In this document: piece by piece, positions 6,271 through 62,724 of the stretch
How positions within the stretch are numbered: position 1 is the stretch's first letter
Layout of the letters: the number at the start of each line of letters is the position of its first letter
Assembly: GCA_026120185.1 (NCBI GenBank)
Contig: JANUWF010001659.1
Coordinates: 2,356,001-2,420,000 of the forward strand
Origin: Voacanga thouarsii
Taxonomy: Eukaryota > Streptophyta > Magnoliopsida > Gentianales > Apocynaceae
Length of the DNA stretch: 64,000 nt
Reading direction: 5' to 3'
Program-made: the position numbers and the translations under genes
Notes under the pieces: model-generated
Seen by the model: the letters and a program-made list of their open reading frames with translations, nothing else
Databases searched by the model: none
What the model was told of the DNA's origin: nothing

Positions 6271-6405
6271 AGCCGGCGCCGGCTCCTAGCAACCAAACCG
6301 GTGCCGGCTTAAATCTACCCCAGCAGCAGCCTTAAATCACAACAAGACCGGTTTGAAGACAGAACCCAGCCGGCGTCGGCTGTGATGTCCAAACTAACAC
6401 CGGCT
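6271..6405 (+). repeat. Two GC-rich bipartite units in the LTR of C
   Basis: Unit 1 (6271-6309) begins with the 14-bp palindrome AGCCGGCGCCGGCT and ends GTGCCGGCT. Unit 2 (6368-6405) begins AGCCGGCGTCGGCT and ends CACCGGCT. Both lie upstream of the TATA box, so in U3. Similar ~38-bp units occur in the LTRs of copia F and element K. Confidence 0.75.
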
Positions 6406-6543
6406 TCCCCCTGGGCAGCCAACGATTGCCCCTCATTTTTAATGTTTTCTCCGATTTTCTTCAATTTTAATTGTTTGTAAAGACTTATTATGACCCTAAA
6501 CTGTAATTAAATATCAGGGATTACTTAGCTAGGGTTAGGATAT

Positions 6544-6552
6544 TATAAATAG
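6544..6552 (+). promoter_or_regulatory. TATA box, 5' LTR of C
   Basis: TATAAATAG lies in the middle of the LTR and is conserved at the same place in the 3' LTR (13085-13093). It is the likely core promoter of the element and places the GC-rich units about 140-270 bp upstream. Confidence 0.65.
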
Positions 6553-7046
6553 TACATTTAGTGATTTGACAAGACAATACACTTTACTTGAATTCAAATT
6601 TGAGAGAAAATCTTGAGAGGCCCTAGCCTCCTTGTTCATCTTGTTCAAGACCAAGCTTAAGGGTTAGTCCTCCTTATGTATGAGTCTATAAATTTTTTGA
6701 ATAATCCAATGTTGTTTTATTTGAATGTGTCTTAGTTGCTTTGTTCTTCTAAGTTTTGTTTGAAATCCAATATTTGGGTGCCTATTTTCTCTATTCTATT
6801 TATTTTTATTTGCTTTTGTTGCTTCAAGGATATTGGAGTGAGATTATAGTAGAACTATCTACTTTTCTTGAGAGTCTTTGAAGCTTAGTTCTTCAAGGGT
6901 TTGATAGAGTTTATGTTGTTATTTCGGTTTCTCCTTTTTATCACAAGAATCTCTATTTTTGGTCCCTTTGAGTTGAGCTGAACACATAGCCAACTAGAAC
7001 ACCCACAACACCAAGAAAAGCCACACAAGATTCGTATCAAAGAGTT

Positions 7047-7058
7047 TGGTATCAGAGT
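7047..7058 (+). other. Primer-binding site of C (tRNA-Met)
   Basis: TGGTATCAGAG follows the LTR end after 7 nt and matches the 3' end of initiator tRNA-Met, the usual primer of plant chromoviruses. Confidence 0.85.
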
Positions 7059-7794
7059 AAGGAAAAGCTTGATTCTCATCAAAGCTTGAAAGTAAGAAAA
7101 AGAACCCTACAAAGTTGAAGAAAAGGGAAAACAGGGAAATCCTGTCACTCAAAAACTTGCTCCAAAAAGATCTTGAAATTTTTATTATATCTTGATTTTT
7201 CTATTGGGAAATTGCTCATTGATGTTACTATAATCCTTGGGAACAAATTTATCTTGTGATTGTGGTGAAAATTGGCTTGAATATGGGTGAAAATACTGGT
7301 TGTTCTTAAGTGACGAGGTTGCATCTAAGGAGTTTGATCATCTTGTTCTTCATAATCCTAGTTCTAGTTGTTCTTGCTAATTCTTATTCGTTTCTTGCTT
7401 AGAAGTGTTTCTTGTGCATCTAGTGTTTGTTTTGTGTTGATTGAATCTACATTTCTTGAAATTCTTGATTAAAAACTTCTTTGCTTGATGTGCCCAACAA
7501 GTGTTTATTGAAATTCCCCTAAGACCCCTAATTGGAAAATTCTTTTGATTTGTGTGATTCACTAAGTTGGACTAAAGCTTTAGCCATTGGGGAGAATTGG
7601 GATTGAACAAGAAGGCTTGAGTGTTGAGAAAAAGGTAAGAGGGTGAGCTTATTATTAGAAGAGCCTAAGAGAGCAAACACGAGCGTAGAGTGAACAACAT
7701 TGAGAGCTAACTTGTAAGAAAGTGAAGTGAGGATATGTTTTTCTTTCTAATCACTTTTGTTTTGCAGGTATAAGTAAGTAGATATTCCATCACC

Positions 7795-9246
7795 ATGGCC
7801 CATGAACAAGAGATCTCTAGGCCTAACCCAAGTGGACCTAGTAGACCTCAAGAAGAACAAATTGATGCTAGGGGACTGTGTGATGACTTGCAAGCTATGA
7901 TGAGGACTATACAAAGTGAATTTCAAAACATGACAAGGGAGTTGATAAATCATCTTGGACAATCTTCTACCGTTGCACAAAGGAGAGGCCAAGAGTGATT
8001 TGAAATGCCAAGTCCAAGGATGAGGGATAGTGGTGCCCATACTCCTCCGTTACATGCCCAATAAAGGGAAGAATGGGATGAATACTCTATTGGGGGTTTC
8101 CAATAAGCTCCTATGAGAGGAGGAAGACATGGTTTGAGAGGAGGACGAGGAAGGGGCCAAGGAAGGAATGGATGGAACAATATAAGGGGGCTAGAAAGAG
8201 AGTTTGAGGGAGTTGATGAATGGTATGAGGGGAAACAAGTTGAGGCCTTTGGGGAACATCATAGAGGATGGGGTAATAGAGGAGGAAGGAGAGAAGGAAA
8301 TGAAGTGGAGAGGGAGTTGAGCTATATTAAATTGAAAATGCCCATATTCTATGGCAAGAGTGATCCCGAAGCTTATTTTGAGTGGGAGAGCAAGATAGAG
8401 ATATTCCTAGAAAGTCATACTTATAGTGAGAGGTCAAAGGTGAGATTGGTTATCTTGGGATTTTCGGAGTATGCGTTGGTATGGTGGGAGCAAGTTAGCG
8501 CTCAAAGGAAACAAATGGGAGTGGAAACCATGGCTAGTTGGAATTTGTTAAAAGATATGACGAGGGCAAGGTTTATACCACACCATTACTACAACGATCT
8601 TTACCAAAGGCTCCAATCACTCAAGAAAGGGAATAAGAGTGTGAAAGATTACCATAAAGAGATGGAAGTTATGTTGATGAGAGCTTAAATTAATAAGGAT
8701 CTTAGAGCAACAAGAGCAAGGTTCTTGGGAGGATTAAATAGAGAGATTGCTAATTTGGTGGAATTGCACCCCTATGATCGATTGGAGGATATGGTACATG
8801 CTGCTATGAAGATTGAGAGGTAATTGAAGAGGAGGGCATTTACTAGACCACTACTTCCAAACCCCAACACTACTAGTAAGGTGCCAATTAAGAAGGATGA
8901 AGCCCCTAAGCCGTTCCAAAGGGACTTCAACAAACCTAGGGAAGGATGGAAACCTAGAGAAGATTGAAAGCCTAGGGAGGATTGGAAACCTAGGGAATGA
9001 TAGAACAAGGATAAGGGAAAAGCCATGGAGATGCCATAAAGGAATAAGGATATCAAATATTTTAAGTGCATTGGATATGGACATACTTTCGATGAGTGTC
9101 CAAGCAAGAAAACGATGTATACTAATCCCTATGGTGAGGTCTCTACCGATGAGGAAAAAAAGGGAGAAAGATACTAAGGAGACCAAGAGGGAAATGGAGA
9201 TGAGGAGAGTGATAAAGGAGAAGTTGTTGGTCAAGAATACTTATTA
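7795..9246 (+). pseudogene. Gypsy C gag
   Basis: This encodes a capsid/nucleocapsid polyprotein for virus-like particles. It begins with the ATG at 7795, the first good start after the PBS leader. A Gly/Arg-rich linker follows (about 8110-8300). Then comes a retrotransposon gag capsid domain (8330-8820) with WESKIEIFL, YALVWW and ARFIPHHYY motifs, a KPRE repeat-rich linker (8930-9000), and a single zinc knuckle near 9058-9100. The first Cys of the knuckle appears replaced by Tyr (YFKC...GH...C). Stops at 7996, near 8062 and 8103, after 8685 and in the linker break it. Several are explained by one C-to-T or G-to-A change. The capsid sequence resembles CRM-type gag. Confidence 0.85.
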
Positions 9247-11342: not shown

Positions 11343-12789
11343 ATTTGTGAAAGATTTGTATGTTGATGATGAGGAGTTTGTGGATATTTTCCATGCTTGT
11401 GAGAAAGGTGCATTTGCCAAATATTATAGGCATGATGGTTTCTTGTTTAGGGAGGCAAGGCTTTGTGTGCCAAAGGATTCTATTAGGGTGTTACTAGTTA
11501 GGGAGGCCTATAGTGGGGGACTAATGGGGCATTTTGGTATTGCAAAAACCTTAGGCATCCTTAAGGAACATTTCTTTTGGAAAAAAAATGAGAAAGGATG
11601 TGGAGAGACATTGTTCTCAATGCATTATTTGTAGGCGAGCTAAGTCTAGATCTCTTCCACATGGTCTTCATACTACTTTGCCCACATCTAATGTACCTTG
11701 GGTTGATATTTAAATGGACTTCATCTTAGGATTGCCTAGGTCCAAGGACTCTATATTTGCGTTTGTTGATAGATTTTCCAAAATGGCTCATTTTGTGGCT
11801 TGTTCCAAGACTAATGATGCGTCTTATATTACAGATTTATTTTTTAAGGAAGTGGTGAGAATGCACGGGTTTTCAAGGACTATTATCTCAGATAGGGATA
11901 CTAAGTTCCTTAGCCACTTTTGGAGAGTTTTATGGAACAAACTTGGAACTAATCTCTTGTTTTCCACAGTTTGTCATCTCCAAACGGACGGACGAACGGA
12001 GGTAGTCAACCGAACACTCACCTAACTCTTGCGAACCATAATTAAGAAGAACTTGAAAAATCGGAAGGAGTGCTTGCCTTACGTTGAGTTTGCTTATAAA
12101 AGGGCTATTCACTCTACCACCTCTATTCTTCTTTTGAAATTGTATATGGTTTTAATCCTCTAACTCCTTTAAATTTGGTTCCATTGCCTATAGATGAGCA
12201 GTTGAACCTTGATGGAGCTAAGAAGGCAGAGATGGTGAAGGAACTCCATGAGAAGGTGAAAGCAACCATTGTAAAACGCAACGAAGAGATCGCCACTAAG
12301 TGCAATCAAGGAAGGAAAAATGTGTCCTTTGAGCTGAGCGATTGGGTATGGGTGCACCTTCGTAAGGAGAGATTCCCCACGCAATGACGGAGCAAACTAG
12401 ATCTAAAAGGGGATGGTCCATTTCAAATTCTTTCCAAAGTTGGAGATAACGCTTACATGATAGATTTACCCGGTGAGTATCATGTTAGTGCCACCTTTAA
12501 TGTTAGTGACCTCTCTCCCTTTGATATAGATGATGGCGATGATTCGAAGATGAATCCTTTTCAAGGAGGGGGAGATGATGAGACTCCATTTCATCATAGA
12601 GGACAAGGTCCAATGACAGGAGCTAGGTCTAAGAAGCTTTTAGACAATTTTCAATTGATCATCAAATCATGCTTAAGGATAAACGAGGATTGGAAGGTTG
12701 AGGAAGCTAGCCAAGAGTTCATATTGATGACCATCCGCAAAGGACTCCAACAAGAAGTCAAGTCGACAGCAAAGGTAGACGAAACTTGA
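11343..12789 (+). pseudogene. Gypsy C integrase, running into 3' LTR
   Basis: Integrase inserts the DNA copy into the genome. A zinc-binding N-terminal part (around 11400-11640) is followed by the catalytic core from about 11714. All three acidic residues are still visible in context: [15 protein letters not shown] and DGRTEVVNR. The C-terminal GPF/Y-type module (GPFQILSKVGDNAYMIDLPG, about 12413-12480) follows. The reading then passes the PPT and enters the 3' LTR, with a GPMTGARSKK motif, to the stop at 12787. No classical chromodomain is seen. Frame changes near 11340, 11640-11710 and 12030-12170 and several stops make it inactive. Confidence 0.85.
12563..12575 (+). other. Polypurine tract of C
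   Basis: AAGGAGGGGGAGA lies directly before the TG of the 3' LTR, the standard start of plus-strand synthesis. It also sits within the codons for the C-terminal tail of pol. Confidence 0.85.
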
Positions 12790-13580
12790 CAAGGGAAGCT
12801 TTCCAGAGGACAGCCGGCGCCGGCTCCTAGCAGCCAAACTGGCGTCGGCTTAAATCTACCCCAGCAGTAGCCTCAAATCACAACAAGACCAGATTGAAGA
12901 CAGAACCCAGTCGGCACCGGCTGTGATGTCCAAACTAGCACCGGCTTTCTCTTGGGCAGCCAACGATTGCCCCTTATTTTTAATGTTTTCTGCAATTTTC
13001 TTCAATTTTAATTGCTTGTAAAGACTTATTATGACCCTAAACTGTAATTAAATCTCAGGGATTACTTAGCTAGGGTTAGGATAGTATAAATAGCACATTT
13101 AGTGATTTGACAAGACAATACACTTTACTTGAATTCAAATTTGAGAGAGAATCTTGAGAGGCCCTAGCCTCCTTGTTCATCTTGTTCAAGACCAAGCTTA
13201 AGGGTTAGTCCTCTTTATGTATGAGTCTATAAATCTTTTGAATAATCCAATGTTGTTTTCTTTGAATGGGTCTTAGTTACTTTGTTCTTCTAAGTTTTGT
13301 TTGAAATCCAATATTTGGGTGCCTATTTTCTCTATTCTATTTATTTTTATTTGCCTTTATTGCTTCAAGGATATTGGAGTGAGATTATAGTAGAACTATC
13401 TACTTTTCTTGAGAGTTTTTGAAGCTTAGTTCTTCAAGGGTTTAATAGAGTGTAGGTTGTTATTTTGATTTCTCCTTTTTGTCACAAGAATCTCTATTTT
13501 TGGTCCCTTTGAATTGAGCTAAACACATCGCCAACTAGAACACCCACAACACCAAGAAAAGACACACAAGATTCGTATCA
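12576..13580 (+). repeat. Gypsy C 3' LTR
   Basis: It matches 6034-7039 over its whole length, from TGATGAGACTCC to GATTCGTATCA. GC-rich units lie at 12812-12850 and 12909-12946, and TATAAATAG at 13085-13093. The first ~210 bp also code for the end of pol. Confidence 0.92.
12812..12946 (+). repeat. GC-rich bipartite units in 3' LTR of C
   Basis: These are the copies of the units at 6271-6405. Unit 1 keeps the perfect palindrome AGCCGGCGCCGGCT. Unit 2 has drifted (AGTCGGCACCGGCT). Confidence 0.75.
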
Positions 13581-20984: not shown

Positions 20985-20985
20985 C

Positions 20986-26315: not shown

Positions 26316-28091
26316 TGTTGGGTATCTCACACATATCATATATGGCGCAACGGAAAGAATAAGAACAAGATACCAACCCAAGATCCACATACGTGTGAAA
26401 AACAAGACATAAAGAGAACAAAGATAACAGCTTTATCTTTCTTTGAGCATCTAAAAAATAAAGTTTTTCCTTCTTCAAGTCGAGGCGCGATCCAGCAATC
26501 CTCTTGATCAAACACCATGAGGGTTGAATGTCCAATCACTATAATCACAGTATGTGATTATCTCTAACAAAAATCCACACGGAAGATGACACTCAAGAGC
26601 CAAGATTTTCTGTGCTAACAAAAAAACAGCAATGGTGGCTAGGGTTCTTCTTTTTTTTTTAGAAAAACGAGAGAGAGAGAAAGATAAAGAAGAAGAATGT
26701 CTTGTATGCCCTAAGGTTTTGAGTTCCTTTCGTGTGAGTTGCTCACCCTGAGGAACTGTGCATATATCCTATATAATGCACGACAAATCCTGATGAAAAT
26801 CACTCTATCTGAGAATTCTAAAACAGTTAGAATTACCTAATTGTAATTGGAAACATTAAGTTCTCACTATTATAATTTGAACCATAAATTATAACTAATT
26901 ATAATTTGGCCACAACAACTTCTCTTTCTCGCAATTAACCCCACTATGTTATCAAATAACATCTTGAGTATATAATCTTCTATTGTGTGTGACCTATTAG
27001 GTTTCCCAGTCAATTGGTAGCGATCATGAATTAATCCAAAGTCTTTGAGATTAATAATCCATAATTGTCTTTGAGATTAATAATCTATAATTAATTAGAA
27101 TTAATCCTATTAATTCTAATCAAGATTGGTTTATTAATTTATCAATTAATATACCTACATTCTCAGATCATGAGTAGTATCTAGCAACACATCATGACCA
27201 TCCAAGAGTCCAGGAAGTCAAGTGACTTAACATAAACCCTTTAATAACAAACTACAGTGCAATTAACTCATTTCATCATACAATATCTCATTTGGTTTGG
27301 AGTACAAAATTAGTGTCAATTCCCACCAGAATATATTAATTCTTGCCTGAATATAATAGTACTTGTACTAGGAACCCACTACTCTAGATGTGTATCAATT
27401 GAAATTATTTCCAATACACAGTCGCTTTGGCCAAGGACTTCTCGAGTAGTAATTCCTACAAGTAGCCATGAGATATTTGCTCCTACTATTAGGAGTGGTG
27501 AATCCTTTATTGACCCTCTCAACTACTTTTGTTTACCTCACAATGTATCCAATATCCATCCCATAGGCGGCCCTCGATCTGGCTCCAGAGATTGGAATCA
27601 AAGCACAATGCTCAGCAAATAAAGTACATTGGAGATCTCAAGTCTAAGGATACTTGCATGTCTGATATATTGAGATTATATCACTGGCACTAAATAGTTA
27701 TCCATGTGATTATCTCATAGCTAAGTCATCTAATGTACTTGTTCTATTAACAAGCATCCACGTGTTAACTTTGAGTATCTTAATACTCACGGATATAAGA
27801 ACCACTGCCTGATCAAATCAGGAAGTCTAACACATGCTAGTCTTAAAGCATTAATGATATCCTGTATCATTAATACTACGACTAGAGACTATTTAAGTAC
27901 TAAAACTATATAGTGTAGTAGGAATCTCATATCATGATTTCCTTAACATAATGTTGTACTAGGGACTTTATTTAATAGTTATATTACATAAAGTAAACAA
28001 AAGAAACTTTAAGATAAATAATGCTTTTTATTAAAATAAAATATGTCATATACAATATATAAGTAATTGCCTTTAGTGCATAACACTAACA
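26316..28091 (-). repeat. Copia solo LTR 3 (1.8 kb)
   Basis: The minus strand starts TGTTAGTGTTATGCAC at 28091 and ends GAGATACCCAACA at 26316. Flanks are ACGGG (26311-26315) and ACGAG (28092-28096), a 5-bp TSD with one change. It splits the protease-RT linker of E exactly between the residues before RPPAEVP. It carries no internal region. Confidence 0.85.
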
Positions 28092-34450: not shown

Positions 34451-36231
34451 TGTTGGGAAATATGCCCTCTTAGACTAGTTTTCTGATGTAAATATTGAAT
34501 ATTTTAATAAAAGAATTTATTTTCAAAAATCATTTGTAAATTTACATTTTATTTGTGCACAATTACGTTTGGAAAAGACTCATTGTGTTTAAGTAAGTGG
34601 TCCATGTGAATGGAGGTCTTTCACAGTAAGGTATGGATCACGGGTTACTTAACACAAACTTTTGTTCTTAACTAATTGATGAGAATGAGAATTTCATCAT
34701 GTTTAAGTTATTATGTTCTGAATTCTAAATGGGAAATAGTTTACCTTTAGCCAGTGAGTAGTCCACTCACTTCATGACATAAGCGTATTTCGAATACATA
34801 GAACAGGACCTGTAATAATGGTTTCTAAAAGTATTATATGGTAGAAATTTAGACTACTACTGCTACAGCGTTGACTAGTACTTTACGACCTGAGTATGAG
34901 TTGGTGGTCTGACGAAGCTCGAAGCATCTTCTTTAATATGCTATAGTTGAGGTTCTATCATAGGACCAATATACTTGCATGTTGGATATATGTGACTAGT
35001 TAGTTAAACAAACTTGTACAAGATAATTTCTATACTATATCGCCCTTTGTGGTTGTCTGAGTGATCTAAATATCCAGAGCCCTTGGATGTTTGCTTTAGG
35101 GTAGCTCCCTTGGAAAGCGGAAACAGTCCATGAAGTTATGGATTGTTGGATTAGAAGTCTAAGGATGGTAGATGTCATTTAGAGAGGTGTTAGTACATTT
35201 TTTCCTCTTTAATGTACGACGATGTAGAGAGGGGTATTTTAGTTATTACACCTGTAGGTCGGAGACTTTGCTAATGCAGCATTGTCCTCGGGGTCAATAT
35301 TTCCTTATAGTGATATTATGAAATATTTAAAATGCAAAATATAGCTATTTATATGCAAGGGTATTTTAGTCATTTTAGTAGTCAAGGCAGTGTGTCTTTT
35401 GGTCTCCAATATAGACCGTGAGTCTTAATTAAAAATAGGCTAAGGAATTGATCTTAAATTAAATGGAATTTATTTTATTTAAGTAGTCTGATTTAATTAT
35501 TGGGCTAGAATAAAATAAATGTCCATAGAGAGAAAGAATTAATTAAATTAGTTTGGTGGGTTAATTAATTATTCAGGGTTTTGGCCTAGTGTGAATAATT
35601 AAAGATAAACCTGGGACTAAACTAATATAGGCTTATTTATTGAACTAGTTTATTTGGGCTGAAAAATTAATTATTAATTGGGCCAATTATTTGGTTCTAA
35701 TTAGAATAATTAATTAAGTCCAAAAGGCTAAACTAAGAGTCCAATGGGTCAGTCCAGTTTAACCTAGGGTTTTTTTTAGGTTAAACAGGAGGATTGGAAA
35801 CAACGTTGTTTTTGACAGACTCTTCTCTGTGGAAAAAAAAAACACATGTTTCTCTCTCCCTCTCTCCAAAAAATATTCTTTAGTTCTGTTAGTTGTTCAC
35901 CAAATAGAATTAGGCAGGCCATATGCTGGAAGATCAAGAGTTTAGCATTCACCTACATGCAAAGATGGAGTAGGAGGCTTGTAGGAATCACACCAAAGGT
36001 TTCCACCAGCACACCTACCTCGGTTCCACACATTCTGATCCATCCAATTCTTAGAACGAGGAAAAAATGTAAAAATTTTAAACCTCAGAACCTGTGCAGA
36101 GTGCAACCGGTGCTGGCTCGGGCTGCCGAAGCTAGTGCTGGCTCTATTCGGAGTTCCCTCTTCTTCAGTTCTTCCAGTTTTTTTTTTCGCTTCCACTGCG
36201 TGCCCTGTGTTTTTCCCTTTCTATGCCTTCA
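34451..36231 (+). repeat. Copia F 5' LTR
   Basis: It starts TGTTGGGAAATATGCCC and ends ATGCCTTCA, followed at once by the PBS. It contains one GC-rich bipartite unit at 36105-36143 near its end. Confidence 0.8.
36105..36143 (+). repeat. GC-rich bipartite unit in copia F LTR
   Basis: The 39-bp unit starts AACCGGTGCTGGCTC and ends GTGCTGGCT with GCTGCCGAAG between. It matches the unit order found in the LTRs of gypsy C and element K. Here it lies near the LTR 3' end rather than upstream of a TATA box. Confidence 0.7.
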
Positions 36232-42097: not shown

Positions 42098-42100
<3 letters not shown>

Positions 42101-42141
<41 letters not shown>

Positions 42142-42158
42142 AAAGAGAGTCCATTAGT

Positions 42159-42184
<26 letters not shown>
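42101..42184. repeat. GA and TA microsatellites in G1
   Basis: A GA run (42101-42139) and a TA run (42160-42184) are separated by about 20 bp. The corresponding place in G2 has a shorter CT run (47845-47868). Confidence 0.95.
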
Positions 42185-42192
<8 letters not shown>

Positions 42193-43757: not shown

Positions 43758-43834
43758 GCTCCAATGATGGAATTTGAACCAAAGACCTTAAGAATTAATT
43801 CCAAAACTCTAATCACTAAACCACAATAACTCTT
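43758..43834 (-). repeat. tRNA-like block in G1 with A and B boxes
   Basis: Read on minus, an A-box-like TTTAGTGATTAGAG (43807-43820) is followed 26 nt later by a B-box-like GGTTCAAATTCC (43769-43780). The spacing is as in tRNA genes. The same block is present in G2. A cloverleaf is only partly possible, so it is not called as a tRNA gene. Confidence 0.6.
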
Positions 43835-44730: not shown

Positions 44731-45894
44731 GTGTTGAATGCATGGCTTCTTCTGTATTCATTAGCTTCATTAGATACACATTGGGAAAAAGGATAAGAAA
44801 TGGATATAGACTTGGATTAGTTCAAGTAATGCATTTCTATTTCTCATAAGAAATGAGAAAAGTTAGGAATTAGTAATTCTTTATGAATATATTTTATTAG
44901 TAATATATGTTAGTTGTGAACCTTAGAATACTAAGTTAGGTCTAAAATGATCCTTGATATAGGTTGTCCACCTTAAGGATTTTTTGAAGATCTAGGAACA
45001 ATACATATATTGCTACATCGAAATAGCATACAAGGTGAGTACCTTGAATTTTCTTGAAATAGCCAATTAGAATTGAATATTTTTATTTCACTAAGTGATG
45101 CATTGTAAATCCTTTAGTTTCTCTAAATAAAAGTATAGTTTTTTCTAAGAAAGAAATGATATTATTCCATACTAGGTTTAAATGAGATATATGAATTATT
45201 CATATTCGGAGACTAATTCCCTAAAGCATGATGATAATATGGTTAATGGATCTTTACATTTTTCTAAACAAAATTAGGTTTCTCTGAATGGGAAATTTCT
45301 GGAGACTTTCGGGAATGATGTTTTCTCCAAGGAATTATGTGTCACTTAAAAATTTAAAATAATGAATAATTCTTATATTCAAATGCTTATTTAAAAGCTT
45401 TCTTCTTCCCTGTTATATGATGAAATGATAACTTATTTTGTTCAAATATTCAGTGCTTCATTTTAAAGATCAAAACCTATGAATATGTGAAGTCTTGGCT
45501 TTAATAGAACAATAAATGGTTTCCAAAATTTGAGGCACGGTGATATATGGAATCCTTAATTTTTATTCTTTTTCTAGACTTAGAATTTTGAATTTTCTTA
45601 ATAGAAGTCTTTTTGGACTCAGGTATATGTAATTTGTAAAAATACCCTCAAAGAATTATTTTATCATGTAAGATCCTTCTTCACTATGATTCTGGAGACT
45701 GATTTCTTGGTAGAAGATCAACATTTGGAAAATGATAGTTTAGCTATTTTCTTGGAATTTCCTCGGGAATATGATATCGATATTGGTCTTATGAACCAGT
45801 AAAAAAGTTAAGTACTCAGTAAGGGCTTTTATCACTATACTTGCTCGTATTAGAGATAAACAACTCCAAGTAACCTATCTAATTCTAGGGATTG
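44731..45894 (+). repeat. Probable 5' part of the LTR of element H
   Basis: No coding sequence. The segment near 45810 (AAGTACTCAGTAAGGGCTTT) resembles the 49645 region of G2. The reading continues across the G2 insertion into 50587-51490, which ends at a PBS. It is therefore inferred to be a related Tekay-like LTR. Its true start was not found. Confidence 0.45.
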
Positions 45895-46137
45895 TGTGAA
45901 ACCCCAGTCGAAACCAACCTTAGAGTAAGGGGGTTGGGATGCATATCATATTTTATTTCATGTTTAAATATATTTTTATATGGTTTTAGGTGCATTAAAT
46001 TTGTGTTTTATAGTCTAGAGGGCTTGATTGTGATTATTGAGTGGGAAGGGCAAAATGGTAATTTTTACCTAAGGTGGAAAAAGGGAGATAGATTGGGGAT
46101 TGAATAGGAAAATATTTTTAGAGAGGAGATAAGAATA

Positions 46138-46213
46138 AGAGTTGTTGTGGTGTAGTGGTTAGAGCCTTAGAATTGATTCTTAAGGTCTTGGGTTCAAATT
46201 CCATTATTAGAGC
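46138..46213 (+). repeat. tRNA-like block in G2 with A and B boxes
   Basis: A-box-like TGTAGTGGTTAGAG (46151-46164) and B-box-like GGTTCAAATTCC (46191-46202), 26 nt apart. Between them CCTTAGAA and TTCTTAAGG form an anticodon-arm-like hairpin. The block lies about 245 bp from the LTR start, in LTR orientation, as in G1. It could be a tRNA pseudogene or SINE head captured by the ancestor of both LTRs. Confidence 0.6.
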
Positions 46214-47844
46214 TATAGCATGATTAAATTTTATTTTTGCTTGGGAAGTATCATTGTCGGCCTTAGTGGTGTTTGGAGTAGGGTAGAGATGTTATCCTAT
46301 GAGAGACATGATAGGCGTCTTCAAATCCTACTCTTTTGCTCTACACAAAATTCCTAAGGGGAATTCATTTCCTCTTGATCCTTAATTTTTCCTGTTTCTC
46401 AATTCATTAGTTTGTTCATTTCGTTCAAGCCAATTTTATTCTAGAAAATTTCAAACAATGTACTGTGGCTTTGAAGGTTCAAAATTTCTTAGTAAAAGAC
46501 ATCTCATGGACCGAAACAATGGAAGGATTTCAAGTGAATTAAATTCCTTAGTGAATTTTCTAAAAATTCACTCCAGCTAGGTTTATTTCCCTTCATGTAT
46601 TGAACTGAAAATTTCCAACTTCTTGTGCCTTCAAGGTGTCGAAATTCTTAGCCATTATTCCATCCCAAATGCTTCCAGAAAATGGCCCTTTTGATCAGCT
46701 TGAAATCTGAATTTTTCTGGCCATTTTCGGACTGCACAAATACTGTGCAAAACCAGAAAAATTTCTGGGCAGATTAGCAGCTTTGGAGGTCCGAAACCAA
46801 GCTGTTTTCTTCCAAGTTTTGTTCAGCACCTTAGCCATGTTTTTCCTCCATGAAGTAGGCTGGAAACCAGCCTTGAAAGCCCCAGAAATTTTCCTTCAAA
46901 GCCTCTACAAATCTCCTGGAAAAGGGCAGCTGAAAACTGCCCAGGAAATTCCAGCCTTGCGAAAATGCTGTGCAGAATTTTGTCCAGCTTTGTTTCCTAA
47001 TTCAACCCTAGCCGAAACTCCATCCTTTTTCTGCAAAAACCACCCTTAAACCTCCATTAACTGAACTCCATTGTCCTCCCTAAGTTCTGCACAAAAATCC
47101 AGCCATGGCTACCAAAAAGATTTCCAAAAAAAAATAAAATTCTACAATCGTGCCTTGATTTGGATACCAAAATTTCAGCCACCATGATTTAACAACTTTC
47201 CATAAAATATACCTCAAACAACCAGACCTTCCCTTCACTATTAGACTCCTTAATTTCAGCCACCATTAGCCTCCTTCAACCAGCTTTCATCCAGCCAAAA
47301 TTCTGCACAAGCAGTCGGCCATGGCAGATTTCCAAGAGCTCTTCCATAATCAAAGATATTCTTGAACATTTAGTTTCCAAATTTGCTTCATAAAAATATT
47401 CTTCAATGATTCCAACAACTAGCCTTTCCTTTTCCCTTCCAAACCAGAAAAACCATCTACCTAAACCCTACAGAAAATTGGCAACCCTAATCCTCATAGA
47501 ATTTCGGCAGCCTCCATCCAAAAGCTCTCTACTCTCTTCAACATTCAAGAATACATAGTACACCAAGAACACCTACTCATTCCTTTCACCTAATACCTCT
47601 CCAAATCACTTCAAACTACCTCTAAAAATTCCAGATTTCATCTATTCATTGCTGTGAGTCCATCCGTACCATTTTTTAACATCAAACTCCAAAATCCAAC
47701 TTGCACTTTTGGATAAAAAATTAGAAATTTTGTGAAGGCTCAAGAACACTTTCAAGGTAGGTTTGTTCAATCAACTTCATCTTCGCTAATCTTTGATCTC
47801 TAATGAATATATATGTGTTTAAACATGATAATAGACTCTTTTCT

Positions 47845-47868
47845 CGCTCTCTCTCTCTCTCTCTCTTG
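47845..47868. repeat. CT microsatellite in G2
   Basis: Nearly perfect CT run, at the place of the longer GA run of G1. Confidence 0.9.
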
Positions 47869-50586
47869 GCCGAATGATTTCATCAACCATGGCCATGCTT
47901 CCTTCATCTCCTTTGGACGGATTTAGGCATCTAGGGGTTTAGATTCATTCGAAACTCCTTCAAGGTATTCATCAATCAAGTAAGCCTTTTTAACCCTTTT
48001 TTTTTAAAATTCTAGACTCATGTCTCTAGGATGATGTTGATAGAAGATGAATCATGAATAGGGTTAAGTATCTATTGTTGTGATGAGTTGAGATTGAAGC
48101 ATGAATATATGTATGAATATGTTGGAAATGGGATTTTTGCATGAGTTGCTTATCTTGGTTGAATATATGGTGTTCTAGGGTTTGATGTATGTCTCCATAA
48201 TCAAGTATGCTAGAGATTATGTTATCTATGATGAATAGGAATTATATTCTTGTGTGATTATTGAAGCTATGATTATATTTATGCTAGTAATAGTTAGATC
48301 ACGCCTTAGTAAGTCTAGATTTATGCTTATATACATGATTTGGATGATTTAATGAATTGAAGGATTGTATATGCTCATGATTGTGTGGTTAGCCATAGAA
48401 ATATGATCATGACCTAGTTGTCCCTAAGCTAATTTTTATTTCATGAATAAAATATTTCATAATGGGATTTTGCTAGTAATTTCCAAAAAAAAAAAACCCT
48501 AGGAGGGGTAAATTTCGATTATTATATATAAACGGATATTTTAGTCAAATAAATAATAAATGTTGCTAGAAAATAAAATATATAGATATTATATATAGAT
48601 TGATAATATCAAATAAAGCCTTTTATGGAAATAATCATAATTAGTAAAATATTTATTACTAAAAATTTAATTATTATCTTTTAATCAAAACCCATTAAAA
48701 ATTTATTTATTATCTTTCAAGTAAGACTCGTTAAATTTATTTTCAACTAATTTTAGTTATCAATTATTTTCTAACAACTAAATTATTAATAAATCATTAT
48801 TTTACCTAATTCCACCTAGGCCTCTTCATCAAATAAACTCTAAATCTTTCTTAGCAAGATTTAAACCTTCAACTTATTAGTACGTATTTTCCAAAACACT
48901 AATTATTCTAAATATCAAATTAGACTTAGCTTATAAACCCTTTTTATTTATTATTTGGCCTTAAAGCTTGGGACACTAGGATCATGGTAGTAGTGAGTTG
49001 AGTTTGTTTTCTTTGTGAAAGTCGATTTTGGACTTGATTTTCTTTTGGGATGATCTAGAAAGTGTTGTAATTAATTTATATGAACTCTTTGATAAATTTA
49101 GAAGATTGTCAAGGGTAAGGACCAACTTACTAGAGTTCATACCCTAAGCTTAAGGATAAGGTAAGTTTCCTTGCATTCATGAAATTGATTTTATTTTATT
49201 ATCTTGGTTTGAAAGTAAGGTTGGTGAGTATCTCTTGCAAATACGAAATTTTAGCACGGTAGCTAATTTTGAAAACCTCTATATTTGGAACCTTTTTATT
49301 TTGGAAACTTTCTACATTCGAAAAACTTCTAATTTTAGAAACTTCTAGATTTATAAATTTTTAAAATGTGTCAGGCATGACTTAGGAGCCAAGCATCAAA
49401 CATTTTGATTTGTTTTGAATATGCAAGAGATAAATTTTTGGGCATGCATCTAATTTTTGAAAATCACAACGTGACTTATTTGAGCATGTGGCTCCTCTAC
49501 TATGAATTTGTGGAATAAATTATTGACTTAAAACCATGCCTTTTAAAATTTTTGTACGAGTTGAAAAATGTTGTTTGGAACTGTATTGAGCTAATTTTGT
49601 AGGTTTCACCTTGGAGCCTTATGAATTGTGAAGATTGAATAACATTGAGTACTCAATGGGGGCTAGGCCTTTATACTAGCCTTTGGTTGGTCTGAGGATA
49701 TCTCTCGGCAGGTGGCCACCTCTGAGAGGTTGACACTTTTTGATCAGGGCGTCAGTATAGAAGGTTGAGCTGTCCTCAGCTAGCGACGGGGTTCTAGTAG
49801 AATCGACGGCTGGAAGTGGGACAACCGGTTTGGATTTTGTGATAGATGGAGGAGTATCTCATTCGGTAGGATGTACACCTACCAGGAGTGAGAGCCACCT
49901 CTGTGCCCTTTCACCATCTGTCGGGGGGTCAAGTGCTTCACCTGGTGTGAGAGCCACCGCTGTGCCCTATCAGATTAACTTGGTTGCTTTAATTGATGAG
50001 TTATTTTCGTGGAACTGTTCTAAAGTGTCATTGGAATTTTATTCGAAGCTTAAAATCTTTTAATTATTCATATATTTCCAAACATAATATTTTAAGAGCA
50101 TTTTGCTCCATGACTTCTCACTACTATCTTCCAAGAAGTGAGAGTTAAATTTGTAAAGAAGACATGACAAGCTTTTGATATACTGCTAGTGCATGCATCA
50201 TGAAAAGTGTTTTGTCTTTTTAGCCCAACTCACACACGGGGCTTACTGAGATTTCTGTCTCATCACGCTTTTTACCATGATTTCAGGTCGATCCTGCTAT
50301 GGGGATGAGTAGCTAGTGTTATCTGCCTTGGAAGAGAATGTTGTCATTTATTCTTATATATTGTTTTGAGGAGTTGAGAGTGGATAATTTTTATTTATGG
50401 ATTTTTATTTGGGAATTCATGGATTTATTCTTAGATTTATTCTTGGGATATAATAAATTTTTGAGTTAAAGAATTATTTTAATCCGCTATTTTATTTGGG
50501 TAACCTAGTTATAAAGACTCCTTGTCCTTTGGAGGGACGACATCCCCGGCCTTGGCGGGCCTAGGTAGTGGGGGTGTTACAGATTG

Positions 50587-55015: not shown

Positions 55016-55295
55016 TGATAGGGGCTAAATTAGTTATATTTTTCCTAGTTATTTGAGGCTCTTTTGTGATACATTTTGTTTAATAACTAGCCATATTCCT
55101 TCATATTTGAGATTTTAACCTTGGAAAGGTATTTTGTTTATTATTTCAGATTTTAAGGGTAAAACGAAGCAAAAACGTCGCAAAACAGACTAGAGGCGAT
55201 GCCGGCCAGGATAGAGGAACCGGAACCGGCCATGTGCTGATGACACGAACTTCAAAGTGACAAAAAATTATAGAAATGAGACTAGAACAGAATGG

Positions 55296-55333
55296 AACCG
55301 GCATCGACTCCAGTAGCCAAGGCGGCACCAACT
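55296..55333 (+). repeat. GC-rich bipartite unit, 5' LTR of K
   Basis: It starts AACCGGCATCGACTC, then CAGTAGCCAAGG and CGGCACCAACT. It is a hybrid: the left side matches unit 1 and the right side unit 2 of the 3' LTR. That points to recombination between two units. It lies about 130 bp upstream of the TATA box. Confidence 0.75.
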
Positions 55334-55461
55334 GTGCCTTGAAGTTAAGGCGGTGCTTTGATTTTTCTACACGGTTTTTGGTAATCTATAGAATTTTAGT
55401 ATCTTCCTACTTCTACTCGGCTAAGAACCTTACACCAACGAGTTTAGACACTTCCTAAGCC

Positions 55462-55470
55462 TATAAATAG
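55462..55470 (+). promoter_or_regulatory. TATA box, 5' LTR of K
   Basis: TATAAATAG, conserved at 62853-62861 in the 3' LTR. Likely core promoter. Confidence 0.65.
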
Positions 55471-55793
55471 ATGGAAAACACAAGGGAAAATGAGAGAATT
55501 TATTGATCATCATAGAAAATCACTCAAATCAAAGGAGGAATTCTTCAATTCAAGGAGGGTTGTACAATAAGGTCTTCAAAGGAAGAAGAAGGAGGCTTGT
55601 CTATGAGTGCTTTCTTTTACTTTGTTTTCTTTTTCTTGAACAATGATGTATTAATTGTTTTATTGTAATTTGACATTGTTTTAGATATTCATGATTTTTA
55701 GAGTTATTCAATCTTTTGATTAATTGATTATTCTTTTTGGTATTTGATTACTTGTGCTTATTACGAGATTAGTTAGTTGTTTCTCTCCATTAG

Positions 55794-55921
55794 CTTACTG
55801 GACCAAGGGGGTTGATGGTGGTTTCAAGTCATTGATTTCATATCTGTTGGCTATTAACTTACTGGACCAAGGGGGTTGATGGTGGTTTCAAGTCATTGAT
55901 TTCATATCTGTTGGCTATTAA
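55794..55921 (+). repeat. 64-bp tandem duplication in 5' LTR of K
   Basis: Two perfect 64-bp copies start CTTACTGGACCAAGGGGG at 55794 and 55858; a partial third start follows at 55922. The 3' LTR has a single copy. Each carries a GACCAAGGG box that recurs several times further on in both LTRs. Confidence 0.92.
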
Positions 55922-56520
55922 CTTACTGGACTAAGGGGGTTAATTGCTTAGAACTAGTAATTAAAGGTTAATTGATGTCTTCCAAGACCAAGGGTTCATT
56001 GATTAATTTCATGTTTTAAATTCGCCAAGACCAAGGGAATTTGATTAAGGATTGTGTTTAATGTATCTTTTGGATAAATTAGTTGAGACGAGACCAAGTG
56101 ATTCTAATTTATCGAGAAAATAGTAATTTCATGGATTGACCAAAGAAGTGAATCTACCTTAATCCTTCATGATGCCAAGAGAATAATTAATTATGATAAT
56201 GATTAGGTACTTTTAGGTCATTTATGTCAAAATAATGGTTTAAGTTATGTACTTTTCCATCATTGACATGTATATATTTTGTTTTTATTTTATTTTATTT
56301 TATTTCATTTCTTTTTCACTTTATAAAAATACTGAAAGAATGGTGATTAATATCTACTTGTTCCTTGAGGATCGACTCTCATTTGAACCCTATGCTCTGT
56401 TAATAATGAGTACGCTTGCTCATATGTGTAATTTGGATTTAACGTTTTAATATAAACTTGATTAAGAATGTGCTTATTTTTGTATTATTTTTATACCCAA
56501 ATAAAATACACATCAAGGTT

Positions 56521-56873: not shown

Positions 56874-58148
56874 ATGGAGGGTGCTCAAAATAACAATGTT
56901 GGGAATAATCGGAGGGTTATGGATGACTTTGTGAAACCCGCAATCTCGGGCATAGGCTCAAGTATCACTAGGCCTAGGGTGGATGCAAATAATTTTGAAA
57001 TAAAGCTCAATATTATCTAGATGGTTCAAAATATAGTTCAACTTGACGGGCTACCTAAAAAAGATCCCAATGCTTATTTAGCTAGTTTCCTTAAGATTTG
57101 TGATACTTTTAAGATGAATGGTGTTTCTGAGGATGCCATAAAATTAAGACTTTTTCCCTTTTCTTTGAGAGATAGAGCCAAATCTTGGTTAAAGTCTTTA
57201 TCTACCGACTCCATCACTACTTGGAATGCCCTAGCTGAAAAATTTCTGGCCAAATATTTTCCTCCAACTAGGACAGCCAAACTTAGGAACGAGATCTTTG
57301 CCTTCCAACAATTAGATTTTGAGCTTTTGTATGAAAGTTAGGAGAGATTCAAGGAGATGCTAAGGAAATGCCCATACCACGGATTTGAGCTAGGAATGCA
57401 TATGCTAATCTTTTTAAATGGCCTTACGTTCACAACACGTCAAGTGGTGGACTCTTCTGTGGGGGGTTCCATCAATTATAAGACCCTGGAACAGGTATTC
57501 GATCTTATTGAAAATCTAGCTTCTAATAACTATTCTTGGGGAAGTACAAGGTCTAGAGCTCGTGTGCAAGAAGTACACAAAGTGGATGCTGTGGCAGCAT
57601 TAGAGGCCAAGGTGGATGCCTTAACTCAGAAGATGGAACAAATGGTGATGCTGCAAGGTCAAGTATTTAATGTAAGTTGTGATTTTTGTAGAAAGGGACA
57701 CTCGAATCATGAATGTCAAAACATAGGGTCACTCCAAGAAACCACGGAACAAGTGGCCTTTGTAGGTAAAGTTCGGCCAGGTAACAACCCTTATAGCTCT
57801 ACTTATAATCATGGTTGAAGAAATCACCCTAATTTCTCTTGGAGCAACAGAAATCAACCTAAGCAGGGTTCTTTCAATTTTGGAGGAAATCAAGGGAACC
57901 AAAACCTCATGAACAATAATGCAGTGCCTTCCAAGCCACCATTGGAAGAATTGATTGGCCAATTGGTAAGTACAACAGAGACTAAGTTTCAAGGGGTCGA
58001 TGTTACAATAAGGAACCTAGAGGCCTCGATGCGCAACTTGGAAAACCAAAATGGTCAACTGGCTAAATTACTGGGGGATCGTCAAGTCTGGACATTACCA
58101 GGAAATACTGAGAAAAATCCACGGGATCAAAGCCGTGGAAAACATTAA
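56874..58148 (+). pseudogene. Element K gag (Athila type)
   Basis: This is a capsid protein of about 425 codons in a single frame, broken only by stops at 57018, 57339 and 57816. Each is one C-to-T or G-to-A change from Gln or Trp in context. Motifs in order: [71 protein letters not shown], then the C-terminal helix region GGSINYKTLEQVFDLIENLA. A zinc knuckle near 57679-57720 (CDFCRKGHSNHEC) follows, then an Asn/Gln-rich tail with a coiled-coil-like stretch. The start at 56874 is chosen because MEGAQNNN continues the gag frame. Gag then ends near its usual junction to protease, which is missing. Confidence 0.88.
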
Positions 58149-59235
58149 AGTTTTTTCTTTTACTTTACTTTCAACTTTTGTGATTGAGACAATTTTTATT
58201 CCTGTCGTTTGGGTGATTATTTTTCATGAATTAGAGTGCATTGTTCATCATTATTGTATTTTTCGCATTTTTATTAATTTAAAATATATATATTTTTTGG
58301 AGAACCGGATAGAATGCAGTCGGTGCCGACTGTGGCTATGACCGACGTCAGTTCCTATCGGGTAAGGTGCATAAGATAGGCCATTTTGGCCACTTTTTTA
58401 TTCAAAATCTGCAACTCCCTCTCAAATTCTCTCTAACCCGCGCCGGCTTCACCTCCCCAACTTCCCAAATTTTGATTTTTCACCTCCTAATCACTTCTAT
58501 AACATCTATCTTCCTCTCTTTTGTTGATCATACGAATCAAAAATCTCAAAATCCTCTATTTTGCATTGCAAACTCATCTTCAATCCACAAGCAAGGAGTT
58601 TGGATTTTTGCAAAAAGCTTACATCTTTTACTTACCTATGCATACACGAGCTCAAAGATACGATTTTTATTCCAGTCCTACAGTTAAAATGGTGTATATG
58701 ACTCTTTCTAATTTTAGGGACAATTTTGGCCAAAAATTAGGATTGTTTATGCTATCTTGAATTGTGCATTACTCCTTGAACTTTATGATTTTGAATACAT
58801 TAGGAGTTAACGGTTCTTGATACTTGCCTCATACACATGATCATTAGAAACTTCATGTATATATATTTAAGGTTAGATTTGTGGCTATTTGTGATGGTTA
58901 AATAATTACTACATATGCACTTCGCATTATTTTTCACGTAATGCCATAATAATACCTTCATTCACATGGTCATGTATACTCGAATGCATTGGGGATATTC
59001 AACACATTTGTTCTTTGTAGTGAGCTTTACATGTATTGTTGCAGGTTATGTTGGATTGATTGGAGGAGATTGAATTGATTGTTGATTGGAGTGTATACAT
59101 TGTAGGAGTTTGGGCTTTGTGGTTGTGAGATTGGTTGAGGGTTGAGTGAGAGTTGAGATTGTGTTTACACCCTGTTTGAAATCTTTGAGCTCATTAGTTA
59201 TAACCTCCTATGTTCACCACTCCTTATTTGATACC
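58149..59235 (+). other. Non-coding section between gag and ORF2 of K
   Basis: No domain recognised. It contains a GC-rich unit (58318-58352), a CCGCGCCGGCTT site near 58438 and AT-rich sequence. A TTGTTGCAGGT site near 59038 looks like a 3' splice site. It replaces the pol genes of autonomous Athila elements and may be a captured 5' region of ORF2 with an intron, which is inference. Confidence 0.5.
58318..58352 (+). repeat. GC-rich bipartite unit, internal region of K
   Basis: It starts with the palindrome AGTCGGTGCCGACT, then GTGGCTATGA and CCGACGTCAGT. It resembles unit 2 of gypsy C (palindrome followed by GTG and a second half-site). Confidence 0.55.
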
Positions 59236-60433
59236 ATGTCTAGAACACGGGGTCATTCCTCTAAAAGGGCGAGAGCTTCCTCTTCTTCGGCCCCTTCATC
59301 CATTGATCCCTTGTTCCTTAGACCAACTGAGTTTATTGATCCATTTTGTGAGAAATGGTACAATAGGAAAGCATCCAATCAAATAATTGTAGAACATACT
59401 TTCGCACCTACCTTAGACCGTGCATTTAAGTTAGGAATGATGTTTAGGAGGCTAGGATGGGGTTCGATAGTGCAGCTAAAAGAGAAGTATTGTCCCGTGC
59501 TCATTAAGGAATTTTATGCCAATATGGTTGACAAAGGCAATAAACACCTTCCACATATTGAAACAAGAGTGAAAGGAATCCCCATAGTCATCACAAAATC
59601 AATTAGCTAACCTTCTCCAGGTGTTTGATGATGATTCATGGCAAGGGGTAGACATGAACAATCAAAAAATTCTTTCTGACCCAAATTGGGATGCCCGAGG
59701 GACTAGAGCCAATCTAGGGTTGTATAAGCATAATGCCTTTCAAGCCAATAGTTTCTATTCGAACAATAATCTGGCTGCCCACTTTAGAACTCTAGTCTAT
59801 ATGTTTGGGTTTAATGTTGTACCCCGTGCTAGTGGTTTTAATAAGACTCGACTTATTGACACTTATATTTTGCATCAGATGATGAACACTCTGTCTATCC
59901 CTCTTGCACCCTTGATTATTCAATCCATTAGGGATGTGGTTCATCACCATCTTTCTACAAAAGCCTTCGTCTTTCCCCTAGTTATAATGAAAATTCTAAA
60001 AGACTTTGGTGTTAGTCTTGAGAAAGAACTGATGGAAGCTACCATTGAGCACGCTATGGTGACAGAACAAACATTGACAAGTTGTGGGTACAAGTACAAC
60101 CCGAAATTGAAAAAATGGCTAACCCCATATGAGGTCAGACATCCCGGATAGGTTAGGCCACCCACCAAGGAGGAGGAGCACCCCCTACCGCTGTCGGTAC
60201 GTGCACGTGCTAGCAGTTCTCAGTCCCAACCCCAGACTGACTTTGAGACTACCGTGCTGGGACGATTAGACCAGCAAACAGAGATGCTCCTTCGCTTGCA
60301 GGGATGTATGGATGACATGGCAAGACGACAAGCTATTATGGAGCAGCAATTGGCGAAATTGCGGCAGCAATCTTTCGGGCAACATGGTGGTGAGGGAACT
60401 TCTGCACCAGCTGATGATGATGAGGAGGATTGA
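59236..60433 (+). pseudogene. Element K ORF2, putative plant transposon protein
   Basis: It starts MSRTRGHSSKRARASSSSA (ATG 59236), a basic Ser-rich N-terminus common in the plant family annotated as putative plant transposon protein (Pfam Transposase_32-like). The family's segments follow: FRRLGWGSI, VLIKEFYANM, RVKGIPIVI, then, after a one-base shift at 59595-59615, DDSWQGVD and the helical part to KKWLTPYEVRHPG. One stop (60149) precedes a coiled-coil-like tail and an acidic end (PADDDEED, stop 60431). About 400 residues with only two lesions, so it is better kept than the pol genes elsewhere in the window. Biochemical function is unknown; no catalytic motif is recognised. Confidence 0.7.
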
Positions 60434-60774: not shown

Positions 60775-60790
60775 TAAGTGTGGGGGAGTG
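60775..60790 (+). other. Internal PPT-like box of K
   Basis: TAAGTGTGGGGGAGTG, preceded by TTGAGGACAA. It is nearly the same as the terminal PPT at 62286-62301, which has the same preceding motif. No LTR follows it. Confidence 0.6.
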
Positions 60791-61420
60791 ATTTGATTAA
60801 AAATTCTTCTTATGCATATACTCTAGCCTTTTCTTGTGCATATACTCTAGACTTCTTGTGAGAAAAATTTTCAAAATTTTTTTCTGATTGTCTTTGAGAT
60901 TTCAAGCTATATTTTTAATGCATGTCTTTATGATGGATTATAGAGTATATGTTCTAGATCATTTATGGCTTATGCATGACTTTTTGCACTCACTTGGATG
61001 AAGTAGTTCTTGATCAAATGCTTTACATTGTTCTTAAACCTTGTTTTCTACTAAAATTCATGGAGCATTCTAGAACTTACTTGAATACCTCTCGAGGAGA
61101 AATAAGAAAGACAATCATGATTTAACTTAGGGATGATGGTAATAGGCCTTCTTTGGATAGTTTGAGCTTTTCAAGCGTACCTATTTTCATATGATCCATA
61201 GTGCCTATTTTGAGCCTAAATTGTTGATTTCTTTCTTTAAAACCCGTTACAATACTTTGTCCATTACTTATTTTTGAGAGTTTGAATAATTTTCCAAATC
61301 TTTATACTCTTAATGGATGAAAGTGCATGAAGGAGAATGTGAGGGAGAGGACTTGTAGAAAGATCATGACTCGTTACTTGCAGTCATGAATCAAAAGTTG
61401 AGTTGAGCTGGAAAGTGAAA

Positions 61421-61625
61421 AGAAATCAAGGAAAGAAAAGAAAGAGAAAGAGAGATTGAACACAAGAAAAGAAAAGAAAAGCTGCTAGAAAAGATGGAAA
61501 AGAAGAAACTGAGAAAGAAAAGAAAGGCAGCAGTGAATGACAAAAGAAGAGAGAGAGAAAAAAAAAGAGAAAGAAAAGAAAAATTGTTCAGAAAAAAAGG
61601 AAGAAAAGAAAGATCACAAAAAGAA
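61421..61625 (+). repeat. Purine-rich GAAA tract in K
   Basis: About 200 bases that are almost all A and G, built of irregular GAAAA/AGAAA units with short interruptions (GCTGCTAG, GCAGCAG). Low-complexity, non-coding. Confidence 0.85.
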
Positions 61626-62285
61626 TGGTGATTGAGTTGTAATAGTTGAGTTCATATCAAGTCCTTAACACCATTGCTGAAAATTTAAGTAATCTTGTGG
61701 AAAAAAATAGGGAAGAGTTGATGAAAAGAGACAAGAAAAAGAAAAAAATGCGAGATTTGCTTGAGTTGCACTAGAGTTGCTAAATAAGGTTATGGGTATT
61801 GATTTATTTTGGAATAGGAGAGCAAGAAGAGTTAGAAATTATTGATACATTTTGTTTATCCTTTTCTTGCGAACTCTCAGCATCTTTGATATTTGATTCT
61901 CCTATATTCTTCATTTAATAAGCTACATTACAAGCCTTTAGCCTTACATTACAAACTTAAAAGTCCTACTTGATCTAAGTAGAATCATAATATATCTCGG
62001 ATTAGTGGAGAGAGTTATGAAAGTAAGCTTATGGAATGCAATTCTTTTTTTAACTAAATTCTTTCCACTGGTTTGAGTATATTGTCAAGTATTGGGATGG
62101 TTCTACTAAGTCATTATTCACTTACACAAGTCTTGCATTTGTTGTGAAAGATGCATAGCATGTGTTTTATGTTCTTGAATGAAGAAAGTATTGAAGATAT
62201 TGTTTTGAAATTGATTGAGTGATTTGATGAAACCTTGTGTTTTCCTACTTGCCTTTGATACTTTGCTTGAGGACAAGCAAAGAGC

Positions 62286-62301
62286 TAAGTGTGGGGGAAT
62301 G
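62286..62301 (+). other. Polypurine tract of K
   Basis: TAAGTGTGGGGGAATG directly before the 3' LTR start TGATAGGGG, the form usual in Athila and Tat elements. Confidence 0.85.
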
Positions 62302-62583
62302 TGATAGGGGCTAAATTAGTCATATTTTTTCTAGTTATTTGAGGCTATTTTGTGATACATTTTGTTTAATAACTAGCCATATTCCTTCATATTTGAGATT
62401 TTACTCTTGGAAAGGTATTTTATTCATTATTTCAGATTTTAAGGATAAACGAAGCAAAAACATCGCAAAACAGACTAGAAGCGGCGATGGCGGCCAGGAC
62501 AAAGAAACCAGTGCCGGCCATGTGCTGATGACACGAACTTCAAAGTGACAAAAATTTGTTGAAACGAGACCAGAATAGAATAG

Positions 62584-62724
62584 AACCGGCACCGGCTCTA
62601 GTAGCCAAGGCAGTGCCGGCTGCACTCTGGACAACATGGTGCTGAAATCAAGAAAAAATCGGCGAATGATTGAAGAAACAAAACACAACCGGCGCTAGCT
62701 CCAGTAGCCAAGGCGGCGCCGGCT
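62584..62724 (+). repeat. Two GC-rich bipartite units, 3' LTR of K
   Basis: Unit 1 (62584-62621) starts AACCGGCACCGGCTC, with TAGTAGCCAAGG, and ends CAGTGCCGGCT. Unit 2 (62687-62724) starts AACCGGCGCTAGCTC, with CAGTAGCCAAGG, and ends CGGCGCCGGCT. Spacing between starts is 103 bp. The second ends about 130 bp before the TATA box. Confidence 0.78.

Follow-up and report, generated by a model that had tools for sequence, protein, structure and literature searches.

Carrier elements in the window

The 64,000-nucleotide stretch of the Voacanga thouarsii genome analysed here (contig JANUWF010001659.1, positions 2,356,001 to 2,420,000; hereafter the window) has a G+C content of 35.4% and contains members of four families of long terminal repeat (LTR) retrotransposons, designated C, D, F and K. 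The subject of the analysis is a compact unit of paired palindromes, which is found in non-coding positions of both copia and gypsy families and most likely acts as a shared on/off switch of these elements. Nine units had been listed in a sequence-only reading of the window, and their coordinates and composition proved to be as given there. Copies elsewhere in the assembly containing the window (1.3457 Gb) were represented by 80 of the 100 listed matches to the pattern CCGGYGCYGGCTC, all from the first contigs and each taken as a stretch centred on the match; the 20 listed places outside this sample include duplicates of the same site and close neighbours.

Element C has its 5' LTR at 6034..7039 (forward strand), which matches the 3' LTR (12576-13580) at 93.8%, and TCTTC is present at both outer ends as a 5-bp target-site duplication. 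The primer-binding site (PBS) TGGTATCAGAGT at 7047 (forward strand) is of the tRNA-iMet type with one mismatch; it was read from the sequence and is not in the word-search list. Pieces of open reading frames (ORFs) match Retrotrans_gag, RVT_1, RNase H, integrase H2C2 and Tf2-1-like SH3, with an rve match below the cut-off, and the predicted RVT_1 and RNase H domains assign the element to gypsy. Each LTR carries two units on the forward strand, at 6271..6309 (two palindromes, 25 bp apart) and 6368..6405 in the 5' LTR and at 12812..12850 and 12909..12946 in the 3' LTR. They lie 138 and 234 bp upstream of the motif TATAAATAG, found at 6544 and 13085. In several other copies of the family (L014, L025, L054) the pair is reduced to one palindrome.

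Element K is bounded by LTRs at 55017..56517 (forward strand) and 62303-63867. A PBS-like sequence, TAGCACCGTTGCC, is located at 56522 (forward strand) with two mismatches to a tRNA-Asp-type word, and a gag ORF (57021-57338) matches Retrotrans_gag (PF03732). Two overlapping ORF pieces (59146-60148) gave partial matches to Transposase_32 (PF20167), below the curated cut-off, and no reverse transcriptase was seen among the scanned ORFs of this element. K is thus classed as putatively gypsy-type from Retrotrans_gag and the PBS only; its layout is one that we take to be Athila-like. Three units are present in the 3' LTR, a degenerate upstream one (62482..62519), a middle one (62584..62621) and a promoter-proximal one (62687..62724), all on the forward strand, and the last two are separated by 231 and 128 bp from TATAAATAG at 62853. 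The 5' LTR has a degenerate upstream unit (55194..55231, forward strand), which had been overlooked in the sequence-only reading, and one further unit (55296..55333, forward strand), apparently a fusion of two neighbours through exchange within the unit. About 103 bp of the 3' LTR, one unit-to-unit period, are missing from this LTR. Within the unit the offset between the two LTRs shifts by this amount (7288 before, 7391 after), so that two adjacent units look fused. An internal unit (58318..58352, forward strand), with a weak second half in this copy, is located between the gag ORF and the Transposase_32 pieces, and a lone palindrome is found nearby (58435..58448, forward strand). The four sampled relatives of this internal region (L024, L043, L056, L084) have full pairs, four in all.

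The 5' LTR of element F (34452..36230, forward strand, about 1.78 kb) is followed by an iMet-type PBS, TGGTATCAGAGC, at 36234 on the same strand. Its unit (36105..36143, forward strand) lies about 90 bp upstream of the LTR 3' end, and 14 sampled copies align through it. TATAAA, TATATA and TATAAT were searched for in the window F LTR and none was found. In two genome copies (L017 and L021) RVT_2 is encoded downstream of the PBS on the same strand, and F is accordingly predicted to be a copia element by the RVT_2 of its genome copies. A second palindrome or unit is present in the leader of some F copies (L017 and L021, where it lies about 470 bp away from the first unit, as well as L053 and L072), in extra leader sequence that is missing from the window copy.

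Family D, absent from the sequence-only reading, is a fourth carrier. Its predicted RVT_2 and gag_pre-integrs domains place it in copia, and its units are located in the leader, about 440 bp beyond the end of the LTR (L020). In the window the family is represented by an LTR on the reverse strand (26316..28091), which matches the D LTRs of L020, L012 and L013. The leader of L013 could not be aligned to those of L012 and L020; its paired palindromes are found about 440 bp after the D-type LTR, the same distance as in D copies.

Make-up and boundaries of the unit

Eight of the nine listed units are pairs of 14-bp near-palindromes with a start-to-start distance of 24 or 25 bp. The same spacing prevails in the sample, in which 106 of the 121 inter-palindrome distances of up to 60 bp in the 80 loci were 24 or 25 bp. 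The unit is longer than the 35-39 bp proposed earlier, since an outer arm of about 9 bp is added on each side. The full unit therefore measures about 56-58 bp and consists, in order, of a CAGARCA-like arm, a palindrome ARCCGGYGCYGGCT with a CGG-CCG core, 10-11 bp, a second 14-bp palindrome, and an inverted, TGYTCTG-like arm. The middle part, CCAAG(n)AGCCA, is similar among K, K-internal and C units.

The boundaries are common to the families. At positions 2-9 of the outer arms identity was 37-60% in all ten pairs of five groups (K, F, C, D and K internal), against 26-33% both at positions 20-27 and for permuted arms, and at positions 11-18 outside the palindromes it had already fallen to background (19-31%). 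In K and D the left arm repeats the right one in inverted form (0.56 vs 0.24-0.30 in the control), and this dyad symmetry is weaker in F (0.43) and in K internal (0.44, for four units). Some K-internal outer arms, for example those of L024, include TGTCGG/CCGACA, a candidate strong auxin-response-factor site.

Genome-wide occurrence

The pattern CCGGYGCYGGCTC has 6,579 matches in the genome (3,296 and 3,283 on the two strands), compared with 6 (3 and 3) for the mirrored control. The bipartite pattern GGYGCYGGCT-N14/15-GGYGCYGGCT has 2,656 matches (1,329 and 1,327), compared with none (0 and 0) for its mirror; perfect palindromes may be counted once per strand in these totals. In the window, a profile of the 14-mer gave 39 matches above 12 bits, where first-order Markov sequence gave 1.85 on average, both strands being counted so that a palindrome may score twice. 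Because that profile was trained on those very units, the genome count serves as the independent test.

Alignment through the unit placed 63 of the 80 sampled loci in a family (K LTR 29, F LTR 14, D 9, C LTR 7, K internal 4). A further 12 align to a family beside the unit only (tentatively K 5, C 3, F internal 2, F 1 and K internal 1): LTR sequence next to the unit region can be aligned, on one side or on both, and the unit region itself cannot, yet units are present. Five loci initially fell outside every family. One of them (L067) was later put in D by hand and another (L013) lies next to a D-type LTR, at the site typical of D; L038, L060 and L073 were matched to no family. Profile searches were run for 76 loci, leaving out four loci of three small groups, and all 76 outscored their own shuffles, a result that is partly circular, since the loci were chosen by motif, and is not used as proof.

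A related group of K-like LTRs (L035, L045, L086, L087) has a unit region that could not be aligned to K, and the paired palindromes of L035, L045 and L087 are spaced by 25 bp instead of 24 bp.

Carriage of the unit was also scored in copies that had not been picked by motif. A palindrome was present where expected in 9 of 12 such K copies, 2 of 2 C copies, 2 of 2 F copies and 0 of 1 D copies, and the 24/25-bp pair in 7 of the 12 K copies, with a background rate of 51 palindrome-containing segments among 1,347 random 500-bp segments. These carrier fractions rest on small numbers, and they include the window's own copies (two K, both C, one F and the D).

Sharing among unrelated families

The claim that unrelated families share the unit was borne out and can be widened to four families, two of copia (F and D), gypsy C and gypsy-type K. 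When one copy per family was compared, the best cross-family alignment fell on the unit in four of six pairs (C-D, C-K, F-K and K-D), and these alignments were equalled by 0-8 of 300 shuffles. All unit sites are non-coding: in U3 (the unique 3' region) before the TATA box, at the LTR 3' end, in the leader, or between two ORFs. The U3 enhancer position assumed earlier holds for C and K, in which the units precede TATAAATAG by 128-234 bp, and fails for F (LTR 3' end) and D (leader).

The spacing between units is about 102 bp in both K and D. Inter-unit sequences of these two families gave z-scores of 4.4 and 4.9 when taken whole, and of -1.4 and -1.3 after 9 bp had been trimmed from each end, so that homology of the entire K and D arrays was ruled out once the unit arms were trimmed. 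Within K, the inter-unit sequence is a clear tandem duplicate (z-score 20 after 9-bp trimming). The spacing shared by K and D without inter-unit homology therefore speaks against the transfer of a longer block.

Proposed role and alternative explanations

It is suggested that the unit serves as a cis-regulatory module at the level of DNA. A sequence-specific host protein probably binds it as a dimer of dimers, and the bound unit would control transcription from the adjacent LTR or internal promoters of several unrelated families of LTR retrotransposons. The explanation to which we give somewhat better than even weight, close variants of the proposal included, is that the paired palindromes are recognised by a DNA-binding protein of the host, which determines how active nearby promoters are; the binding of a protein, the control of promoters and the host, rather than element-coded, nature of the factor are what we infer. 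A role at the DNA level fits better because about half of the CpGs of the K and C 3' LTRs lie in the unit array, namely 16 of 30 in the window's K 3' LTR and 8 of 15 in its C 3' LTR, in each case within 16% of the length.

Several observations weigh against such a regulatory module. Its placement varies by family, and the single-copy alignments between C and F and between F and D gave no significant match. The K-internal stretch of the window matched no other family at E <0.1. The dyad symmetry of the outer arms was not seen in C (0.307, with a control of 0.307), and the window D copy lacks the unit, no palindrome being present at the expected leader place (25657-26067). Within families, divergence from the window copy was measured with the motif-selected unit masked. 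The K core had mismatch rates of 0.164 at other sites and 0.307 at CpG-like sites, compared with 0.123 and 0.220 in the flanking LTR, and the C core 0.194 and 0.265, compared with 0.173 and 0.200. The units of K and C are not better conserved than their flanks, and the arrays turn over. In K, the middles (0.389 at other and 0.248 at CpG-like sites) and the outer arms (0.327 and 0.176) were also scored; core conservation was not measurable for F.

An apparently stronger conservation of units within families was an ascertainment effect of motif-picked loci and was gone once the selected unit had been masked.

An explanation of origin that is compatible with the regulatory module is that template switching, gene conversion or micro-insertion carries the unit about as a small cassette, which is retained afterwards; we regard it as possible, with odds clearly below even. 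A tentative extension, which we would also rate well short of an even chance, is that a portable cassette of 56-58 bp was acquired separately by copia and gypsy lineages, each of which set it at a different promoter-linked site, and that one trans factor, either of the host or the product of one element exploited by others, co-regulates several families. The presence of a five-part composite (arm, palindrome, spacer, palindrome, arm) in four unrelated families, together with the middle shared by K, K-internal and C, favours a common origin, and units do recombine, as seen in the fusion in the K 5' LTR and in the C copies that have collapsed to one palindrome. Against the cassette, the shared sequence fades at an equal distance in all family pairs and the inter-unit sequence is non-homologous (the trimmed K-D comparison above); the common boundary and the lack of homology between spacers point to selection acting on a compact module, which may have emerged repeatedly in response to one and the same factor. 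The ends of 119 units, searched at offsets 6-15, showed no target-site duplication of 5-8 bp, which is a further point against it. A slight excess of 2-3 bp duplications was seen at offsets 8 and 10 (maximum 0.40 vs 0.28).

Micro-insertion in the manner of miniature inverted-repeat transposable elements, with a target-site duplication, was rejected, as no such duplication was seen.

The unit might instead be mainly a silencing target of the host or a source of small RNAs, its palindromes and dense CG/CHG sites attracting methylation or small interfering RNAs, while the elements keep it only because it is also of use to their promoters, a tug-of-war of the kind proposed for maize. We consider this rather unlikely as the principal function. 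The purine/pyrimidine variation of the core fits CpG decay (the K core values of 0.307 at CpG-like sites and 0.164 at the rest), but a similar tendency exists in the K flank (0.220 and 0.123). Two reports, in the parts available (PMC10760457, PMC5311732), describe palindromic LTR regions in maize Sireviruses as hotspots of small RNAs. A pure liability should vanish, yet the palindromes are kept in 9 of the 12 K copies not selected by motif.

That the unit forms a hairpin for packaging or dimerisation of the genomic RNA, also raised by the sequence-only reading, is quite improbable. Pairing of the palindromes and arms could give a stem of about 22 bp and a loop of 10-11 nt, and the unit lies in the 5' part of the RNA in D, and in F if transcription starts upstream of it. 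The C and K LTR units, however, are upstream of the TATA box and would hence be missing from the 5' leader, and the position relative to the transcript differs among families. Arm covariation was absent in five groups (two of K, one of F and two of D, with too few units in C and K internal), in which the pairing of an arm with its own partner was equalled by 63, 313, 364, 190 and 454 of 500 partner shuffles. Folding z-scores averaged -1.1 to -2.0 against shuffles in five families, and the two-arm hairpin formed in 33 of 57 folds, which cover 57 of 107 units and only the first 20 of 70 for K.

Chance and base composition are ruled out by the mirror-control genome counts (6 vs 6,579 and 0 vs 2,656), and nesting of one family in the others is excluded by flanks and protein domains, which separate the copies into distinct families, so that an artefact of either kind is barely conceivable.

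Comparison with known systems

Literature searches by motif and by exact string found no paper on this unit; the exact strings retrieved two unrelated papers, and among the results of the motif searches the closest work concerns Sirevirus, Del and VANC. As described in the available part of Bousios et al. 2010 (PMC2829016), the RM boxes of Sirevirus LTRs (Ty1/copia) are palindromic with a CGG-CCG core, cluster in the LTR before the TATA box, occur in extra copies before ENV and number at least 8 per element; they are reported there as Sirevirus-specific and absent from the classic retrotransposons compared. By analogy, the unit may work like these boxes. It is likewise palindromic with a CGG-CCG core, CpG-dense and surrounded by diverging flanks, the units of C and K are grouped ahead of the TATA motif in the upper LTR half, and K has internal copies before a second ORF (that with the partial, below-cut-off Transposase_32 matches), an arrangement that may or may not correspond to the copies before ENV.

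The differences from what that part of the paper describes are also considerable. The unit is carried by two families of gypsy type and two of copia, none of them Sirevirus; F and D carry GTGGGAG-type polypurine tracts, unlike the Sirevirus tract AGGGGGAG located 10 bp before the 3' LTR. It combines two palindromes at 24-25 bp with outer arms, and is found at the LTR 3' end in F and in the leader in D. At least 8 RM boxes are counted per element, against 2-6 palindromes in each LTR of the window copies: C has 4 palindromes, F 2 (in the window) and D 4 (L020), and in K the 6 LTR palindromes together with the internal ones bring the total to about 8.

In maize, according to the parts available of two papers (PMC10760457, PMC5311732), Sirevirus cis-regions resemble the present case as palindromic, highly variable arrays in the LTR regulatory region, and a link of their palindromes to small RNAs has been proposed; the sequence of the unit is different. 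The maize palindrome is also reported to be more frequent than any other motif in structured regions of Helitrons (PMC10760457, in part) and provides a precedent for sharing across element classes. The CpG islands of Del (Ty3/gypsy) are similar in being GC-rich stretches of variable length in a gypsy LTR, within its 5' half, but the available part of that account (PMC4029996) describes no palindromic unit crossing superfamilies, and the eudicot Del elements it covers are without an island. VANC targets of VANDAL, as far as the text available extends (PMC5735166), are comparable as short repeated non-coding motifs with tandem duplication and turnover. The VANC21 motif is enriched in VANDAL21, rare elsewhere and bound by an element-coded protein; a target of this type would be largely private to one related group, unlike the unit, which is present in copia and gypsy families.

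The control sequences of LTRs are thought to evolve quickly and separately in each family. If the proposed role is correct, one factor would switch or silence several copia and gypsy families jointly, and palindromic boxes of the Sirevirus type would represent a wider control element of retrotransposons rather than a peculiarity of Sirevirus.

Inverted structure adjacent to element F

A large inverted structure (39736-50568) is located directly past the end of the F 3' LTR match (39730). Its ends, of about 310-340 bp, are 76.6% alike, and its inner arms of about 3.2 kb (40860-44076 and 45895-49041) are 72.6% alike.

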